Shown piece by piece: positions 10,537 through 18,575 of a DNA stretch of 64,000 nucleotides. A program made the translations under genes and the position numbers. This DNA comes from Nitrospira sp. (lineage in GTDB: Bacteria; Nitrospirota; Nitrospiria; Nitrospirales; Nitrospiraceae). Every line of letters starts with the position of its first letter. The stretch's first letter is position 1. Under the pieces are notes generated by a model. The model worked only from the letters and a program-made list of their open reading frames with translations. It did not search any database and was not told the DNA's origin. The DNA lies in assembly GCA_030692565.1 (NCBI GenBank), contig JAUYAO010000057.1, positions 124,001-188,000 on the forward strand, written 5' to 3'.

Positions 10537-10603
10537 AGAGACTCGCTGCCGGCTGTAACCGACGACACCCACGTTGACTACCGGCTGTACGGAGACGAAA
10601 CAC

Positions 10604-11632
10604 ATGAACACCGGACCCTTCTTGACTCTGCGATATATTCTGACGGTCTGCGCCCTGCTCGCGTCCTGCGCAAGCTTCGTTGACCAAGCCGATGCAGCCG
10701 GCCCGGTCGCCTACCGAGACTGTGCGTTGTCCTGGAATCCGAATACCGAATCCGATCTGGCCGGCTATCGGGTCTATATGGGACGAAGTCTCAACCAGCT
10801 CAACCGGATGAGAGACGTGGGTCTGCGCACCGCCTTTCGCTGTTCGGAAGGCGACGCAGCCGAAAACGGCCAGTGGTTCGGCACGGTCACGGCCTACGAT
10901 CACAGCGGGAACGAAAGCGCGGCGGCGCAGGCCGTCCCCTTTGAAATCGTCGGATGGCCGGACCCGGTACTGCCGGCAGAAATTCATGAACCGTCCTCGG
11001 CCCGCCTCGTGAACACGACACTGGGAGCGATCCTCGTCTGGAACGATGCTAATGTGCCGTCCGTCTCGCATCGGGTTGAAATATCCAGCTCGCTGGTTCC
11101 CGCCTGGACCACTGCCGTCGTGCAGCCTCCGGGAGTCCCCATGTTCTCCTATTTTCAGCTCGCCGGCGCCGAGTGGGTCTGCTACAGAGTCCGGGCGGAA
11201 CGAGGCGCGCTCGTCTCTCCCTGGGCGCAGGCCGGTGGACCAACCGATCGCCAATTCTGCACGCGCCCGGCGGAACTTCCGACGATTGCCCAGCCGATTC
11301 TCGCGCCGACGATCCTGTATGAGCCGGAATCGGTCCGCTTGGCCGCATCCCCTCGCGGCTTTACTCTCTCGTGGGGACGCCCCGGTGCCACGACCGGCCC
11401 GGCCTATCGGATTGAAGTCAGCGGGGCGCTCGATTATCGCTGGACGACGCTGGCAGTCCTTCCGCCTGGTACCAACGAGTTCCGCTACTATCGCGCCATC
11501 GACGCTGAGTGGGCCTGCGTCAGAATCAGGGCTGAAGTAGGGCGCGCGGTCTCTCTGTGGTCTGCGGCAGGAGGTCCGACCGATCGGCAATTCTGCTTCA
11601 AGCCCTCTTCTCCCGTCGCCAGCAACCCCTAA
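10604..11632 (+). CDS. Fn3-like repeat lipoprotein
   Basis: A 342-residue exported protein. The N-terminus MNTGPFLTLRYILTVCALLA is followed by a lipobox (LASC), so lipid anchoring is likely; cleavage after ADAA is the alternative. Three immunoglobulin-like (fibronectin III-type) units follow: one around CALSWNPNTESDLAGYRVY, and two homologous units that each end in GGPTDRQFC. The second and third share the pattern (Y/H)R(I/V)E(V/I)S...W(T)T...F.Y(Y/F)...AEW(A/V)C.R(I/V)RAE. The ATG at 10604 fits the signal peptide. Its TAA is followed at once by a dispersed element (11633-11790). A binding or scaffold role outside the inner membrane is likely; the ligand is unknown. Confidence 0.75.
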   Translation: MNTGPFLTLRYILTVCALLASCASFVDQADAAGPVAYRDCALSWNPNTESDLAGYRVYMGRSLNQLNRMRDVGLRTAFRCSEGDAAENGQWFGTVTAYDHSGNESAAAQAVPFEIVGWPDPVLPAEIHEPSSARLVNTTLGAILVWNDANVPSVSHRVEISSSLVPAWTTAVVQPPGVPMFSYFQLAGAEWVCYRVRAERGALVSPWAQAGGPTDRQFCTRPAELPTIAQPILAPTILYEPESVRLAASPRGFTLSWGRPGATTGPAYRIEVSGALDYRWTTLAVLPPGTNEFRYYRAIDAEWACVRIRAEVGRAVSLWSAAGGPTDRQFCFKPSSPVASNP

Positions 11633-11790
11633 CAGGCTGTTGACAATGTCCGCCAACGGCGTTCTCATCATCCGTGAAGCGTTCCTCGTGAAGCGTATCT
11701 CGCGAACGTGCCCTCGCCGATCCTATAACGAGAGACGAACGACGCTTCACGAACAACGGACAAAGCGGACGGCCTTTCTGAACAGCCTGC
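11633..11790 (+). repeat. Full-length dispersed element, copy A (MITE/REP-like)
   Basis: About 158 bases starting CAGGCTGTTGACAATG directly after the TAA of the lipoprotein gene and ending AACAGCCTGC, so the ends are inverted (CAGGCTGTT/AACAGCCTG). The whole length is a reverse-complement copy of the element at 16360-16532, with shared inner blocks (CGCCAACGGCGTTCTCATCA, GTGAAGCGTTCCTCGTGAAG, AACGAGAGACGAACGACGC). The inner part is self-complementary and would fold into a long hairpin. Confidence 0.75.
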
Positions 11791-11954
11791 GGGCCATACG
11801 GATCCTATCCGTGATCTTAGCCCAGACTTCCTCACCGGAGCCGTTATCGAGATTATCAACAGCCTGCTAATAACCTGCTCGGATCGACGTATCCGGAACC
11901 CACGTCCTGAACGGGCCGGGAGGAGCGCTTTACGCTCCTCCCGATAGTGAACAG

Positions 11955-12038
11955 CTTCACTTTTCTGCTCGCTTCACGTTTCACGCCTCACGTTTCACGG
12001 TGCACTGAACGCCGCTGGCGGACTTTTTCAGCATCCTG
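11955..12038 (-). repeat. Partial dispersed element, copy C
   Basis: Contains several TTCACG units and then the element end GAACGCCGCTGGCGGACTTT...AGCATCCTG, which abuts the TAG of the PEP-CTERM gene at 12039. It corresponds to one half of copies A and B. Confidence 0.65.
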
Positions 12039-12689
12039 CTAGGCCGCCAGCTCACGGCGCTTCTTCCAGGCCAGGCCTCCGACGCCCATCGCCCCGCTGG
12101 CAAACAACAGAAACGCGGCAGGAACCGGCACGGGCGCCGGGGTCAGGCCGACGGCCTTGCCCTGCAAGAAGAACGTGGCGGTCCGGTCCTGTCCTCCCTT
12201 GCGCGACCAGTCCTGCTCACCCTTGAACGCGCCGCGCTCAAAGAGATGATTCCAGGACAGGCTGAATTCCGAGGTCTCCGGGTTGAACAATCCCTTGGCA
12301 AGACCGCCGATATTCCAGGCGCGCACCTCGCTCCCGCGGCTCCAGCCGAAGAACAACGAGGAGAGATCGACGCTCAGCGACGACCCGTTGATCGTGGCGG
12401 AGGGCGCCGGAGCGCCGGTCATCCCGCTGGTGAAGAGTGAGTAGGTGGTGCATTGCTTCGTGATCGGATCCACGATCTCCGTCATCGACTGAAACGATCC
12501 CATCTTGATGACCCCGTCACGGTCGAACAACCGGTCGAGCGTGCGGCCATGTTCGCCGCTCCAATTCACCGCGCCCGAGGTGAATTCCAATTGGCCGATC
12601 GAGACCGCGTGGGCGCGGCCCTCCAGCCCCACGAGCGACAGCGCCGCCGTTGCTACCACCGCCACCGTCAATGCGAGTACACCTTTCAT
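12039..12689 (-). CDS. VPxPA/PEP-CTERM sorted exported protein
   Basis: A 216-residue exported protein. It has a signal peptide (MKGVLALTVAVVATAALSL, cleavage near AHA-VS) and a C-terminal exosortase sorting tail: PVPVPAA, a hydrophobic helix FLLFASGAMGVGGLAW and a basic end KKRRELAA. Exosortases cut at the VPxP motif and hand the protein on to the envelope or extracellular matrix. The ATG at 12689 is preceded by AAAGGAG. The middle of the protein is not recognised. The TAG lies directly against a dispersed repeat. It is the last of three such genes in the window, near an exopolysaccharide locus, which is the usual setting for PEP-CTERM proteins. Confidence 0.82.
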   Translation of the reverse strand: MKGVLALTVAVVATAALSLVGLEGRAHAVSIGQLEFTSGAVNWSGEHGRTLDRLFDRDGVIKMGSFQSMTEIVDPITKQCTTYSLFTSGMTGAPAPSATINGSSLSVDLSSLFFGWSRGSEVRAWNIGGLAKGLFNPETSEFSLSWNHLFERGAFKGEQDWSRKGGQDRTATFFLQGKAVGLTPAPVPVPAAFLLFASGAMGVGGLAWKKRRELAA

Positions 12690-12957
12690 CGCGAACTCCT
12701 TTGGTTGTGAGACGAACTCTATGAGTTCGCCCCGGTGTGAATGTGAAGATGAACCGATGCGCTTCGATGAATCCGTTCTACGTTGCATTTCGTAACAAGC
12801 CGCTGTGAGGAGCATCCCGGCAAACCCATTCTGGGAGCCATGGATAACATCCGTGTAAACTTTCGATCCTGGTTCGATTAATTTTGGATCAAGATTTAGG
12901 GGGCGAGCGAAGAGCCCCACCCTTATGAGGGAGCATGACTGATTGTCAACAAGCTCG

Positions 12958-12975
12958 CTGAGCAATTATGCTCAG
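12958..12975. other. Small perfect hairpin
   Basis: CTGAGCA and TGCTCAG are separated by ATTA. It is about 270 bases upstream of the PEP-CTERM start and could be an operator or part of a leader. Function unknown. Confidence 0.3.
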
Positions 12976-13163
12976 TGGGGACGGCTATCACTGCCGTCGT
13001 CCACCCAGCCGTCCGGTCAATATCAAGCACGAAGCGTTCCAACGAACCTTCCCACTGATCGCCTTCGCACCAATGACCGCGTCCCTCACGAGAGAGGCCG
13101 CGCGCAGGAACAGTCTACCGCTCAGGCTTACTGTATCGCGAGAGGAGAGGCAGAGGGTCGAGA

Positions 13164-13214
13164 GGCAGAAAAAGACACCGGCCCCCGCCACAGGATCACT
13201 GCGACGGGGGCCGG
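13164..13214 (-). terminator. Intrinsic terminator of the PEP-CTERM gene at 13244
   Basis: On the minus strand CCGGCCCCCG (rc of 13205-13214) and CGGGGGCCGG (rc of 13178-13187) form a perfect 10-bp GC stem with a 17-base loop, followed by TGTCTTTTTCTG. It begins about 30 bases after the TAG of the gene. Confidence 0.8.
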
Positions 13215-13243
13215 GACAAGCGGGCCGATCGTGGCCCAGGAGA

Positions 13244-13885
13244 CTAGAGGACTGACTGGGTCTTGCGGAATCCCAGAAGTCCCATCAGGCCGCTGCCGAA
13301 GAGCAGCAGCGCGCCAGGAAGCGGCACCGCCGCAAGCTGGGCAGACCCTTGGAGGGAAAACGTGCCGGACTGCAAGAACGGAATGTTGTATCCCGTAAAG
13401 GACTTGGTCCAGGACACGTTGAAGGCGTTCGTCAGTTCATTGAACGACCCGGCGGCGTTGCCGCCGACATTCAACGACGCCATCTGTGGATTCGTGTTAA
13501 CCCAAGACCAGCCGGTGCTGGTCACCCCGGCGAAGAGTGACTGGAGATCCGCCGTCATGACCGCCCCGGTCGTCTGTGCGGTCGGAGCGGGAAGATTGAG
13601 CGCTCCACCGTTGCTCGTGAAAAGGGAGAACGTGAGGTGGGAGAGTGTGATCGGAGTGAAGATGTTCGGCAGAGGCTGGTACTGCCCCATGACCAACTGC
13701 CCGTTCTGCGTGAAGGTGCCGGACACCGACCCCAACGAGCCGAAGTTCAGATTGACCGATCCGCCGGTGATGTCGAGCTGCGTCACCGACGCTGCCTGCG
13801 CGGGAACCGGCGCAACCGACAGCACCATCACAGCCAGGAGCGCGAATGCTCCTCCCCATGACATGAATCGTTGAAGGTGTCTCAT
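13244..13885 (-). CDS. VPxPA/PEP-CTERM sorted exported protein
   Basis: A 213-residue exported protein with signal peptide (MRHLQRFMSWGGAFALLAVM, cleavage near AQA-AS) and sorting tail VPLPGALLLFGSGLMGLLGF ending in RKTQSVL. The mature part is rich in Gly, Ser, Thr and Asn, as is common for matrix-associated PEP-CTERM proteins. I choose the ATG at 13885 because GGAAGG lies about nine bases upstream; an in-frame ATG at 13894 lies too close to that site. An intrinsic terminator follows the gene. Its mature sequence resembles the neighbour at 12039 in layout (TQLDITGGSVNLNFG against IGQLEFTSGAVNWSG). Confidence 0.82.
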   Translation of the reverse strand: MRHLQRFMSWGGAFALLAVMVLSVAPVPAQAASVTQLDITGGSVNLNFGSLGSVSGTFTQNGQLVMGQYQPLPNIFTPITLSHLTFSLFTSNGGALNLPAPTAQTTGAVMTADLQSLFAGVTSTGWSWVNTNPQMASLNVGGNAAGSFNELTNAFNVSWTKSFTGYNIPFLQSGTFSLQGSAQLAAVPLPGALLLFGSGLMGLLGFRKTQSVL

Positions 13886-13961
13886 CACTGCCATCCTTCC
13901 CAGGTGGCTGCCGGGAGTCTCGCTCCCGAACAGCCACACTGCGCGAGTATGAAGGGCTCGA

Positions 13962-15233
13962 TTACCGGCACTCGGGGTGAGCGCCTGCCTTCCAAATGAG
14001 CGGACCCTTGTCCACGTTCTTGGTCACGAACATTTCCTCATCGGACGCCCAGTAGGCGCCGGTGGGAATGATGCCGATGGTGGCTTGCGCCGAGGCATTA
14101 TCGACATAGGCTTGAGCCAACGCGTCGATGGCCGCGCCTTCGGAGGTCGTCCGGCGATTCAGGCGCCAGCCGGCCCAATAGGCATACTTGCCGCAACGGA
14201 GGTCGCGCTTTTCGTTGCCGACTAAAGCCGGATCATGGGCTAACCCGCCATCAAGACGGACGGTATAGCCCAATCCGGCGTTGGCGCCGCCCGGATTGAA
14301 GCTCACCACCGTATCTGAGTCCATATAGCCGATGGAACGGCGATTGCTTGCCAGACAGGTCAACACACCCGACGAACTCGAGCTGAATACCGACGTGGCA
14401 TTGGCCAAGAGGGTTTCGGTCGAATTGATCATGACGGCTTCATCGAATGTCGCCTTCGTGCCTGAGCCGGCACTGCGCATGCAGAGGGTGATCGGCGAGG
14501 TCGCTTCTAACACACCGGGAGCCGCATCGGTCACCGTGCCGAATCCCAGTTGCCTCCAGTCCGTGACTTGCTTCGAGAAAATTCGCTCGATCTCCAGACG
14601 GGACAGTCCGGCGATCGGTCCGCCCGGAGCGCCTGCCACATCCTTCACTACTCCCTTACCCACATAAATCGAGAATGGCACGATGGCCGCCACCACGCTA
14701 TTGAGGCTGCTGTCGTCCAGCGGGCTCACCGTCGTCCCCAATGGGCCGGCCTGGTGAAATGACGCGCCCTGCACATCGGAGGCGCCCAGATGAACCGGGA
14801 GGCTGATCGTATTGCCGTTGTTGCAACCGGTTGTATTGTTGTACTGCTTGCCGTCCGACGGTCTGGCTGCCACGTTCGGACCCGTGCAGCCGGTCGTCAG
14901 AGTATGGTCGAGGAACAGCATGTTGGAGGCCGGATTGGCAGCCGGCTGAAGCAGCTTGTTGACGCCGTCGCTGGACCCGGTCGCCGAATAGCGCATGATC
15001 ACGGGCAGGCCCCCGCGGTTGCAGGTCCAGGTGACCTTGTTGTTGTCCGCGCTCGAAAACCGGCTGGGAAGCGGCGCGGCGTCGCACAAATTCAACGGCA
15101 CGTCTGTCGCAAAGTTACGCCCGGCGGACGAGCCGCCGACATTGAGGACGGTCTGGGCCTCGGCGGTTCCGGCCAGGCCGGCCAGCGCCAGCGCGCCGGC
15201 GAGAACTGACACATATTGTGTCGTAAACTTCAT
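13962..15233 (-). CDS. PstS-like periplasmic binding protein
   Basis: A 423-residue exported protein with signal peptide (MKFTTQYVSVLAGALALAGL, cleavage near AEA-QT). It has type II periplasmic-binding features of the phosphate-binding PstS kind: the N-terminal strand VLNVGGSSAGRNF, an inner RYSATGSSDGVNKLL loop, the LSRLEIERIFSKQVTDWRQL helix, and RSAGSGTKATFDEAV, the anion-binding S-G-x-K segment. A GAAGGAG precedes the ATG. No pstCAB genes are nearby, so it may be a matrix or stand-alone binding protein rather than an ABC-transporter part. It lies between two PEP-CTERM genes in the same direction but has no sorting tail of its own. The ligand may be phosphate; this is inference. Confidence 0.75.
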   Translation of the reverse strand: MKFTTQYVSVLAGALALAGLAGTAEAQTVLNVGGSSAGRNFATDVPLNLCDAAPLPSRFSSADNNKVTWTCNRGGLPVIMRYSATGSSDGVNKLLQPAANPASNMLFLDHTLTTGCTGPNVAARPSDGKQYNNTTGCNNGNTISLPVHLGASDVQGASFHQAGPLGTTVSPLDDSSLNSVVAAIVPFSIYVGKGVVKDVAGAPGGPIAGLSRLEIERIFSKQVTDWRQLGFGTVTDAAPGVLEATSPITLCMRSAGSGTKATFDEAVMINSTETLLANATSVFSSSSSGVLTCLASNRRSIGYMDSDTVVSFNPGGANAGLGYTVRLDGGLAHDPALVGNEKRDLRCGKYAYWAGWRLNRRTTSEGAAIDALAQAYVDNASAQATIGIIPTGAYWASDEEMFVTKNVDKGPLIWKAGAHPECR

Positions 15234-15284
15234 GGGTGATCTCCTTCAAATAAAATAATGTACCTGTTGGTTTCGATCCGTACC

Positions 15285-16016
15285 CTATGCGGCCATCTGG
15301 GCAAACTTGCGCCGGGCGATTCCGACGAGCCCGATCAAGCCGCTGCCGAACAACACCACGCCGGCAGGAAGGGGAATGGGAGCCACGTTCGGACCGGGAT
15401 TGCCGATCGTCAACAATCCGCCAGCGGTCAACAAGACCCGGCCTACCTGGGTGAACGCGTTGGTTTCCACATCGCCACGCATAATATTGAGAACATTATC
15501 GAGGTTGCCCTGCATCGCCCGCTCCCAGGCTCCTTCAAACTGACCCGATCCGGAGGTATTGAGATTCTGCGAGAAGGACCGGTTCAAGGAATCGGACTTG
15601 CTGATCGTATCTCCGTCGAAGAGCGGCAGTGATGACCACACCGCCGACGCGATGAACTGTGTTACGAAATCCTTCGTCCCGGTCAGCTGCGCCGGAGTAA
15701 AAGCCGTGGCCGCATGGATCTGTCCGTTTGTCAGACTGGTATCCCAGCCGAACACGGTGTACTTCACCGGGTTCCCGCCGACTTGCGCCGCGGCCAATCC
15801 CGCGGAGGCATCAAAGTCGAACGTTGCGCCGGAGCCCAGTCTGGTGTTGTAATTTCCCAGATTATAGAGCGCCTCGGTGCTGTTCCCGTAGATCGCCAGC
15901 ACCAGGTCGCCGTCACCGAAGGTGAACGCCTGCGCCTGTCCGGCCATGCCGGACACCGCCGTGGCTACGGCTAACGCCGCCGCCATCATCATCCGCTTGA
16001 TCCCTTGAACTTTCAT
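15285..16016 (-). CDS. VPxPA/PEP-CTERM sorted exported protein
   Basis: A 243-residue exported protein. The signal peptide is MKVQGIKRMMMAAALAVATA with cleavage near AQA-FT, and the C-terminus is PIPLPAGVVLFGSGLIGLVG followed by IARRKFAQMAA, a good exosortase sorting tail. The start at 16016 has AAGGAGG upstream. The mature part begins FTFGDGDLVLAIYGNSTEAL, a segment I have no function for. The start of the PstS-like gene is 51 bases further on, so the two may be co-transcribed. Repeated 7-4-7 sites lie 150-200 bases upstream (16162-16223). Confidence 0.82.
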   Translation of the reverse strand: MKVQGIKRMMMAAALAVATAVSGMAGQAQAFTFGDGDLVLAIYGNSTEALYNLGNYNTRLGSGATFDFDASAGLAAAQVGGNPVKYTVFGWDTSLTNGQIHAATAFTPAQLTGTKDFVTQFIASAVWSSLPLFDGDTISKSDSLNRSFSQNLNTSGSGQFEGAWERAMQGNLDNVLNIMRGDVETNAFTQVGRVLLTAGGLLTIGNPGPNVAPIPLPAGVVLFGSGLIGLVGIARRKFAQMAA

Positions 16017-16161
16017 ACGACCCCTCCTTGATTGTAAAAATGACCTGTACTGCTGCCCTGCCTTCGATTCCTGAACTGTCCTCGCTCCCATCACCCCCTC
16101 TCTTTCCGAGAAGGGCGCGCAAATCTTTTGATAGATTCACACTGCCGTTCTCTCGTATCCG

Positions 16162-16223
16162 TGTTACAGCCACGTCACCCTCCCATTTGAGGGTCGTTAA
16201 CAGTGCGTTGCCGCAGTGTTGCG
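16162..16223. promoter_or_regulatory. Cluster of 7-4-7 direct repeats (PhoB/OmpR-like)
   Basis: TGTTACA-GCCA-CGTCACC (16162-16179) and, after a short gap, CGTTAAC-AGTG-CGTTGCC-GCAG-TGTTGCG (16195-16223) all keep 11-bp phasing. They lie upstream of the minus-strand PEP-CTERM gene and the PstS-like gene. A phosphate-type (PhoB) regulator would fit the PstS-like product but is not shown. Confidence 0.4.
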
Positions 16224-16359
16224 GATCGGGCGAAGCCCGGCGGGCCACTCGCTGCACGTGAGGAGTTGTACGCGGGAGAAGTTACCGCGCGATCAACGGA
16301 GCTTGTGGGAAGGGTAAATTGTAGATAAAGAACGGGAAACAAACGGCCGATGAACTACT

Positions 16360-16532
16360 GCAGGATGCTCCAGCAAGGCGGTCTGCTTCGTCCGTCGTTC
16401 GTGAAGCGTCGTTCGTCTCTCGTAGTAGGATCGGCGCAGGCACGCTCGCGAGATACGCTTCACGAGGAACGCTTCACGAGGAACGCTTCACGGATGATGA
16501 GAACGCCGCTGGCGGGCTGTTTCAGCATCCTG
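16360..16532 (-). repeat. Full-length dispersed element, copy B (MITE/REP-like)
   Basis: Begins GCAGGATGCTCC and ends AGCATCCTGC, so the ends are inverted. It is the reverse-complement counterpart of copy A at 11633-11790 along its whole length, with one extra GAGGAACGCTTCAC unit. The minus-strand end CAGGATGCTGAAACAGCC directly follows the tonB TAG. Inner TTCACG units would pair with each other in a long hairpin. Confidence 0.75.
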
Positions 16533-17171
16533 CTATGTCGGCGGGAAGAATTTTACGACGATCGTATGATCCATCCCCGGCGGAGGCGGACGCACCTCCG
16601 TCACTTTGGCCAGCGCATCGAGCGCGGATTGATCGAAGAGGAGACTGCCGGACGAGTTGACGAGGCGGAACTGCAACACACGACCCTGTTCATCGATCAC
16701 CAACTCGCAGAGCACGGCATATTCCAGATCGTCCGGGAGCGACGCCGGGGCCTGATACTTCGACTGAATCGACGCGGTCAAGATATCCGTGTAGCCGGCG
16801 AATCGTCCCCGGCCTTTCCCAATGGCAAACGGATCGGTGCTCACCGGCGGCGGCCCCGGCGCATCGGACGCCTTGGGTGGCGGCGGCGCTTCTGCCTGCT
16901 GAGGGGGAGGTGGAGGCGGCGCCTCTTGCGGCTTCGGCTCCGGCTTGGGCGCCTCCGGTTCCGGTTCTGGTTCCGGTTCCTTTTCAGGCGGAGGGGGCGG
17001 CTCCTCTTTCTTGAAGGCATTCAGCTTGTAGACCTTGATGAGGTCCTGCCCCCATTGGGTTTGCGCCACCCAATAGAGTCCGCCGCCGATGCCGACATGC
17101 ACCAGCCCGACGATCAACAGCGTCGTGCCGAGCTTGCTCTTCTTTTTTTCAAATCCCTTATAGCCGGCCAT
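16533..17171 (-). CDS. tonB: TonB energy transducer
   Basis: A 212-residue TonB. The short cytoplasmic start MAGYKGFEKKKSKLG leads into one membrane helix (about 16-37), then a long Pro/Glu/Lys periplasmic spacer (about 53-110) and a C-terminal TonB domain (about 125-212) with YAVLCELVIDEQGRVLQFRL and SALDALAKV. TonB carries proton-motive energy from ExbB/ExbD to outer-membrane receptors. The His typical of the E. coli transmembrane helix is present (VGLVHVGIG). It is in the same direction as exbB and exbD but separated from exbD by a 178-base repeat block. Its TAG abuts a dispersed element. Confidence 0.92.
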   Translation of the reverse strand: MAGYKGFEKKKSKLGTTLLIVGLVHVGIGGGLYWVAQTQWGQDLIKVYKLNAFKKEEPPPPPEKEPEPEPEPEAPKPEPKPQEAPPPPPPQQAEAPPPPKASDAPGPPPVSTDPFAIGKGRGRFAGYTDILTASIQSKYQAPASLPDDLEYAVLCELVIDEQGRVLQFRLVNSSGSLLFDQSALDALAKVTEVRPPPPGMDHTIVVKFFPPT

Positions 17172-17349
17172 CTCTTCAACTCGTGAAACGTGAAACGTCG
17201 TGCGTGAAGCGCAAGGGGGAAGGCGTCCAACTCGTGAACGGTGAAGCGTGAAACGTGAAGCGTCCCTCGTGAAGCGTCCGAATCCGCAATGAGATACGCT
17301 TCACGTCTTCTTCTGGCGCTTCACGCTTCACGAGGGACGCTTCACGGTC
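17172..17349. repeat. TTCACG inverted-repeat block between exbD and tonB
   Basis: The gap is filled with GTGAA(A/G)CGT units on the left and their complement (ACG(C/T)TTCACG) on the right. A perfect 23-base inverted repeat (17255-17277 with 17323-17345) would give a stable hairpin with a 45-base loop in the mRNA. The motif GTCTTCTTCTGGCG in this block recurs in the next block upstream. Confidence 0.8.
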
Positions 17350-17766: not shown

Positions 17767-17952
17767 CCCTGCCCTCCGTATCTCGTCTCACGTGAAGCGT
17801 GAAGCGTTATGTCGTGAATTTCGTATCGTGTGAAGCGTGAAACGTCATGCGCGAAGCGCCCGAATCCGAAACGAGATACGCTTCACGTTTCACGAACAAC
17901 GCTTCACGTCTTCTTCTGGCGTTTCACGCTTCACGAGCCACGCTTCACGTCC
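17767..17952. repeat. TTCACG inverted-repeat block between the four-helix-bundle gene and exbD
   Basis: About 170 bases of GTGAAGCGTGAAACGT units and their complements. A stretch of nearly 60 bases (17834-17890) is almost identical to 18391-18447, and GTCTTCTTCTGGCG is shared with the block at 17172-17349. A TGAAGCGTGAAACG / CGTTTCACGCTTCA pair can form a hairpin. Confidence 0.8.
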
Positions 17953-18306: not shown

Positions 18307-18575
18307 GGGCGCCCTCCTGTGCTGCAAACGCTACCATGCTATGCGGCATCTGAGGAACACCCTGTCAATTCATGAGGTGTGAAACATATCTCGTGAAGCG
18401 TGAAACGTCATGCGTGAAGCGTCCGATCCGAATGCGATACGCTTCACGCTTCACGTCCTTTCCCACACTTCACGACCAACGCTTCACGTGCCTTCTCTGG
18501 CGCTTCACGTTTCACGAACGACGCTTCACGCCCTTTTCCCCGCGCTTCACGCTTCCCGCACAACGCTTCACGTCC
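18307..18575. repeat. TTCACG inverted-repeat block between exbB and the four-helix-bundle gene
   Basis: From about 18375 to 18570 the gap is dominated by GTGAAGCGT/ACGCTTCAC units in opposite orientations, the longest of the three blocks in this operon. It shares near-identical segments with the block at 17767-17952. Only the first 70 bases are non-repetitive. Confidence 0.8.

Follow-up and report, generated by a model that had tools for sequence, protein, structure and literature searches.

Two reverse-complement repeats in the window, by which is meant the whole 64,000-nucleotide stretch of Nitrospira DNA that was analysed, belong to a new family of MITEs, a known kind of element, and the IS5-type partner insertion sequence (IS) of this family is identified. 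The elements are short, non-coding and present in many copies, and are very probably moved in trans by an IS5-type transposase of the NF033581 group. No description of this Nitrospira repeat was found in the open literature searched. In Nitrospira, a genus of widespread nitrite and ammonia oxidisers, the family is an abundant small interspersed repeat, and element-free orthologs make it a clear example of a YTAR-targeting transposon for which stop codons serve as safe sites.

Copies, anatomy and spread of the family

A repeat search pairs the two copies through two sets of inverted arms, of 108 nt (91%) and 77 nt (86%), and copy 2, used as the query in a search of the whole genome, recovers copy 1 at E 1.8e-41 with 80% over 176 nt, which bears out the full-length reverse-complement relationship claimed by an earlier sequence-only reading of this DNA. 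The palindromes lie close to the limits given there, but copy 1 is longer than was described, and the size of ~160-175 bp assigned to the element covers only a part of a canonical form of ~198 bp. Copy 1 is complete, occupying 234 bp on the minus strand (11633-11866), with terminal repeats at its ends (the right end, at 11633, is CAGGCTGTTGACAATG; the outer left end, at 11866, reads CAGGCTGTTGATAATC on the minus strand) and CTAA at each flank (11629-11632 and 11867-11870); the portion recognised earlier is its palindromic module (11633-11789, minus strand). Copy 2 consists of the palindromic module alone (16361-16532, plus strand), with no recognisable left arm. Both modules have the TTCACG-type core, and the inner TTCACG units, as well as the inverted ends with their matched differences (CAGGCTGTT/AACAGCCTG and CAGGATGCT/AGCATCCTG), are present as had been noted. 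The two copies, together with loci L061, L088 and L217 (relative G021), form a subtype in which the upper hairpin is built of TTCACG repeats. Rfam 15 gives no match above the gathering score within the window.

The earlier reading had made its proposal dependent on further copies in the genome, and at least 40, the window pair included, are found in the 4.17 Mb source genome; the search with copy 2 returned, besides copy 1, ~40 places matching mainly the right end GAACGCCGCTGGCGGACTTTTTCAGCATCCTGCTA. The family is carried by 28 of 39 relatives. Among the matches listed in a pattern scan of GTDB, the contigs belong to Nitrospirota and mostly to Nitrospira, including N. moscoviensis, the exception being a single MAG, represented by two contigs, that carries the label Nitrospinota.

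The anatomy was derived from a collection of 177 non-redundant copies, which have in common an imperfect palindrome of 122-125 nt (CAGGATGCTCAAAAAGGCCGTCCAGCAAGGCCGCAG...GCGAGAACGCCGCTGGCGGACTTTTTCAGCATCCTG). Many of them extend leftward by an arm of 75-77 nt starting CAGGCTGCGGAAAAACT, so that the full element measures 197-201 nt. In the canonical form, CAGGCTGCGGAAAAAC is followed by a 76-nt arm and by a palindrome of ~124 nt that opens with CAGGATGCTC and closes with AGCATCCTG, with YTAR on either side; the outer ends are thus CAGGCTGCGGAAAAAC on the left and, read as the complement, CAGGATGCTGAAAAAG on the right. About half of the copies, copy 2 among them, have no recognisable left outer end, and some palindromes contain additional inner segments, ~50 or ~70 nt long.

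These inner segments of ~50 nt (TTCTCACCCRCCCAACCCCGGCGCGCC...) and ~70 nt (GAGGTACATACCAAGCTTCGCTTG...) recur (loci L012, L021, L024, L069, L035 and L009, L017, L022, L048) and recall the internal insertions of ERIC, the 127-bp enterobacterial repeat. ERIC is likewise an imperfect palindrome of ~125 nt that is intergenic, multi-copy and known in variants with internal insertions (general knowledge; PMC2759123), but no sequence likeness to it is seen by eye, and the Nitrospira family differs in its 76-nt arm, its YTAR duplications and its IS partner.

Target duplication and the partner insertion sequence

Each end is bordered on its outer side by YTAR, in most cases CTAG, TTAG or CTAA. In 31 of the 90 full-length elements the two flanks are identical over 4 bp, against a mean of 16.4 and at most 26 when the flanks are shuffled 1000 times; flank matches of other lengths, counted with the 4-bp register left out, are few (2 bp in 4, 3 bp in 2 and 5 bp in 1). 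No duplication is seen when it is measured at the edges of the inner palindrome; the signal appears once the 76-nt arm is included. The family therefore combines terminal inverted repeats with a target-site duplication, CTAA/CTAA in the case of copy 1, and a YTAR duplication is what insertion of IS5 makes (PMC10359306).

Element-free counterparts of occupied sites were found in the relative G022. A PHP-domain gene there ends ...LKDALAKL-TAA without an element (...LLPKLKDALAKL-TAA), whereas its counterpart in the source genome ends ...LKDAVAQL-TAA-CAGGGTGCTG (...LLPKLKDAVAQL-TAA-CAGGGTGCTG); the G022 ortholog of a LuxR-type gene stops at the same residue and has no element there. At those same stop codons, the orthologs at L271 (PHP) and L300 (LuxR) carry other insertions of the same end type. 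In these two comparisons of orthologous genes, the element-free sites show past insertion at the native stop.

A paired-end search in the relatives recovered, besides short forms (131 and 201 bp), elements of 1.25-1.38 kb encoding a transposase with DUF772 and DDE_Tnp_1 domains. With the NCBIfam IS5 model NF033581 (cut-off 140), an intact transposase of 362 aa reaches 277 bits, and matches occur in 26 of 77 Nitrospira genomes. Most of these IS have the ends CAG(G/T)CTG(C/T)(G/T)GA(A/C)AAAC flanked by CTAG or another YTAR; an autonomous element with the same ends (CAGGCTGCGGAAAAAC or CAGGCTGTTGACAAAC) and the same duplication thus accompanies the short forms. The window contains no transposase, as was correctly stated earlier, and the search for an IS with matching ends elsewhere in the genome, which had been suggested as a check, yields a single IS5-type copy on contig C13, whose end CAGGCTGTTGACAAAC matches that of copy 1. 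Its transposase frame (C13:20832-21470) is broken by one in-frame TAG, is the sole one of the NF033581 group found in the source genome and is ~50% identical to a transposase whose IS bears CAGGCTGCGG ends; no IS with the exact CAGGATGCTGAAAAAG end was found in the source genome.

The sharing of the end motif and of YTAR duplications with IS5-family IS points to a MITE moved in trans and not to a REPIN. Mobilisation by the partner would proceed through an IS5-family DDE transposase that recognises the terminal repeats of 16-17 bp, CAGG(C/A)TG(C/T)(G/T)GAAAAAC, and directs insertion to YTAR, with duplication of those four bases. Features shared with the IS5-family IS are the terminal repeats, the 4-bp YTAR duplication (PMC10359306) and, in the partner elements, a DDE transposase; the Nitrospira element differs from those IS in being non-coding, about 200 bp long and largely palindromic inside, and in having a third, internal segment resembling the terminal repeats. 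MITEPsy1 of Pseudomonas syringae (100 bp, listed as IS5?, with 18-bp terminal repeats) is similarly short and non-coding with a probable IS5 parent (PMC3189936), but it has few copies in another host and its frequent miniature-element mobilisation has been shown by experiment (PMC3189936).

Other MITE types of 131 and 201 bp with CAGGCTGCGGAAAAAC ends and different interiors were seen at L212-L216, L225 and L226 (G018, G012, G047, G039), so that several MITE families seem to share the transposase end. An IS110-family element with a stop-interrupted transposase frame lies inside a MITE with CAGGCTGCGGAAAAAC ends at L210 and L211 (G018). An IS110 transposase between matching ends was considered as the mover and rejected; comparison by eye with the short form places the IS110 element within a same-ended 131-bp MITE, and it is taken as a passenger.

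The terminal stem and the predicted hairpin

The covariation between the two ends that the sequence-only reading had anticipated is present: in an alignment of 88 divergent palindromes, the top two covarying column pairs overall, 5-120 and 8-117, both fall in the terminal stem. Position 5 is matched in 148 of 160 cases and position 8 in 152 of 160 (maxima of 120 and 121, respectively, in 2000 shuffles), counts that represent non-independent events since the copies are related. Twelve different end variants are perfectly complementary, and 96% of cells are paired against 33-46% with slid partners.

Among the full-length copies, the right end agrees with the inner left segment at positions 5 (67 of 76) and 9 (75 of 76) and with the outer terminal repeat at the same positions in only 5 and 10 of 76; position 10 behaves in the opposite manner, matching the outer repeat in 68 of 76 copies and the inner segment in one, which leaves a fixed C-C mismatch. 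By this alignment the right end is seen to pair with the inner left segment and not with the outer terminal repeat. Since the matching is split in this way, the right end seems to be held by the transposase as well as by the hairpin.

The earlier proposal that the pairing of the ends is kept by selection accordingly stands as regards the covariation, while selection on the fold itself is probable, as judged from an alignment of related copies. The matched changes could also have come about through template-directed correction of one arm by the other at replication, or through co-evolution of the terminal repeats with transposase variants, neither of which calls for selection on the fold. Correction of quasi-palindromes is a known process, and IS copies themselves carry the same variant, for instance CAGTCTG or CAGTGTG, at their two ends. 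However, the right end tracks the inner segment and not the outer repeat, and the C-C mismatch at position 10, which arm correction should have erased, persists; this account is therefore possible but the less favoured.

The matched changes in the terminal stem indicate that the fold has probably been kept. Once inserted, the module of ~124 nt can form a long hairpin, whether in RNA, within a 3' untranslated region, or in DNA, as a cruciform. The predicted RNA fold of a consensus-like sequence has -65 kcal/mol (z -6.4), with z of -4.2 for copy 2 and -2.1 for copy 1. By analogy with proposals made for REPs, the most likely use of such a hairpin would be in protecting or processing the 3' ends of transcripts, and the family lends itself naturally to testing whether hairpins of this kind act on mRNA 3' ends. 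It may further be speculated, as a rather unlikely extension, that a genus-wide transposon led to stops by its YTAR preference has had its hairpin adopted as a standard 3'-untranslated structure of many genes in Nitrospira, one end being constrained by recognition by the transposase and also by pairing with the internal third repeat.

Stop codons as landing sites

Just past the right end, 130 of 177 copies have CTA, TTA or TCA as the next three bases, and 46 copies have the stop of a flanking ORF directly adjoining that end (distance 0). An open stretch of 100 codons or more is present in frame 0 in 70 of 157 copies, and in the other two frames in 21 and 8. This abutment arises in large part because YTAR contains TAA/TAG: 45 of the 149 YTAR sites in the window (~30%) end an open frame of at least 100 codons, spurious frames included, so that target preference already gives much of the effect. 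YTAR sites are scarce inside GC-rich genes, making stop codons common and harmless landing sites, and an insertion there retains the stop codon and leaves the protein unaltered.

Placement at stops by selection, and not by target choice, would be expected of a dedicated 3'-end regulatory module, be it a bidirectional terminator or a 3' stabiliser of mRNA. The 46 abutting right ends and the stability of the consensus-like hairpin are in keeping with such a module, as is the orientation of the 27 full-length copies that abut a stop: the right end is turned towards it in 21 and the left end in 6. It is nevertheless quite unlikely, in view of the share of YTAR sites that end open frames, of the many copies with no gene 3' end adjacent and of a consensus-based terminator scan, which detected no terminator-like site in the window copies.

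The sequence-only reading had offered a REPIN-like plan beside that of a MITE, and many palindromic, mostly intergenic copies, stop-supplying termini as in GTAG REPs (PMC3733652) and five Y1_Tnp genes in the source genome might suggest hairpins spread via single-stranded DNA by a Y1 (HUH) TnpA-REP protein; this is largely refuted and highly improbable, as the elements have, in place of a GTAG/GTGG foot without duplication, YTAR flanks duplicated on both sides, none of the five Y1 genes is flanked by a right end or by a pair of ends (a lone fuzzy end match lies near each of two), no linked, repeat-flanked TnpA-REP gene was found and DDE insertion sequences are bounded by the same ends. REPIN or IS200-like single-strand transposition was rejected on account of the duplications and the lack of a linked Y1 gene. 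GTAG REPs and REPINs resemble the family in being hairpins near gene 3' ends with termini that often supply a TAG stop (PMC3733652), but REPs measure 20-40 nt and have a GTAG foot and a Y1 transposase, in contrast to the target duplications and DDE transposase of the Nitrospira elements. Terminal repeats, YTAR duplications, many copies, empty orthologous sites and a same-ended IS5-family IS instead uphold the MITE moved in trans. Integron attC sites, considered because they follow stop codons, were rejected since no arrays were seen.

All three right ends in the window touch the stop of a neighbouring ORF. The TAA at 11630-11632, within the CTAA adjoining copy 1, ends ORF 10574-11632 (plus strand); copy 2 is adjoined at its right end by CTAT (16533-16536), whose CTA is the complement of the TAG stop of a TonB-like gene (16533-17171, minus strand), the product of which has a TonB C-terminal domain; and the right end of a third family member (12007-12038, plus strand), for which no left end could be clearly placed, is followed by CTAG (12039-12042) holding the TAG stop of ORF 12039-12965 (minus strand).

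Palindromic TTCACG/CGTGAA arrays of 10-12 units each also occur at 17182-17347, 17791-17950 and 18392-18573, occupying the gaps among tonB-like, exbD-like, 23S rRNA-intervening-sequence protein (PF05635) and exbB-like genes; the other five IVP genes of the genome are without such arrays. The window as a whole contains 84 TTCACG/CGTGAA units against ~31 expected.
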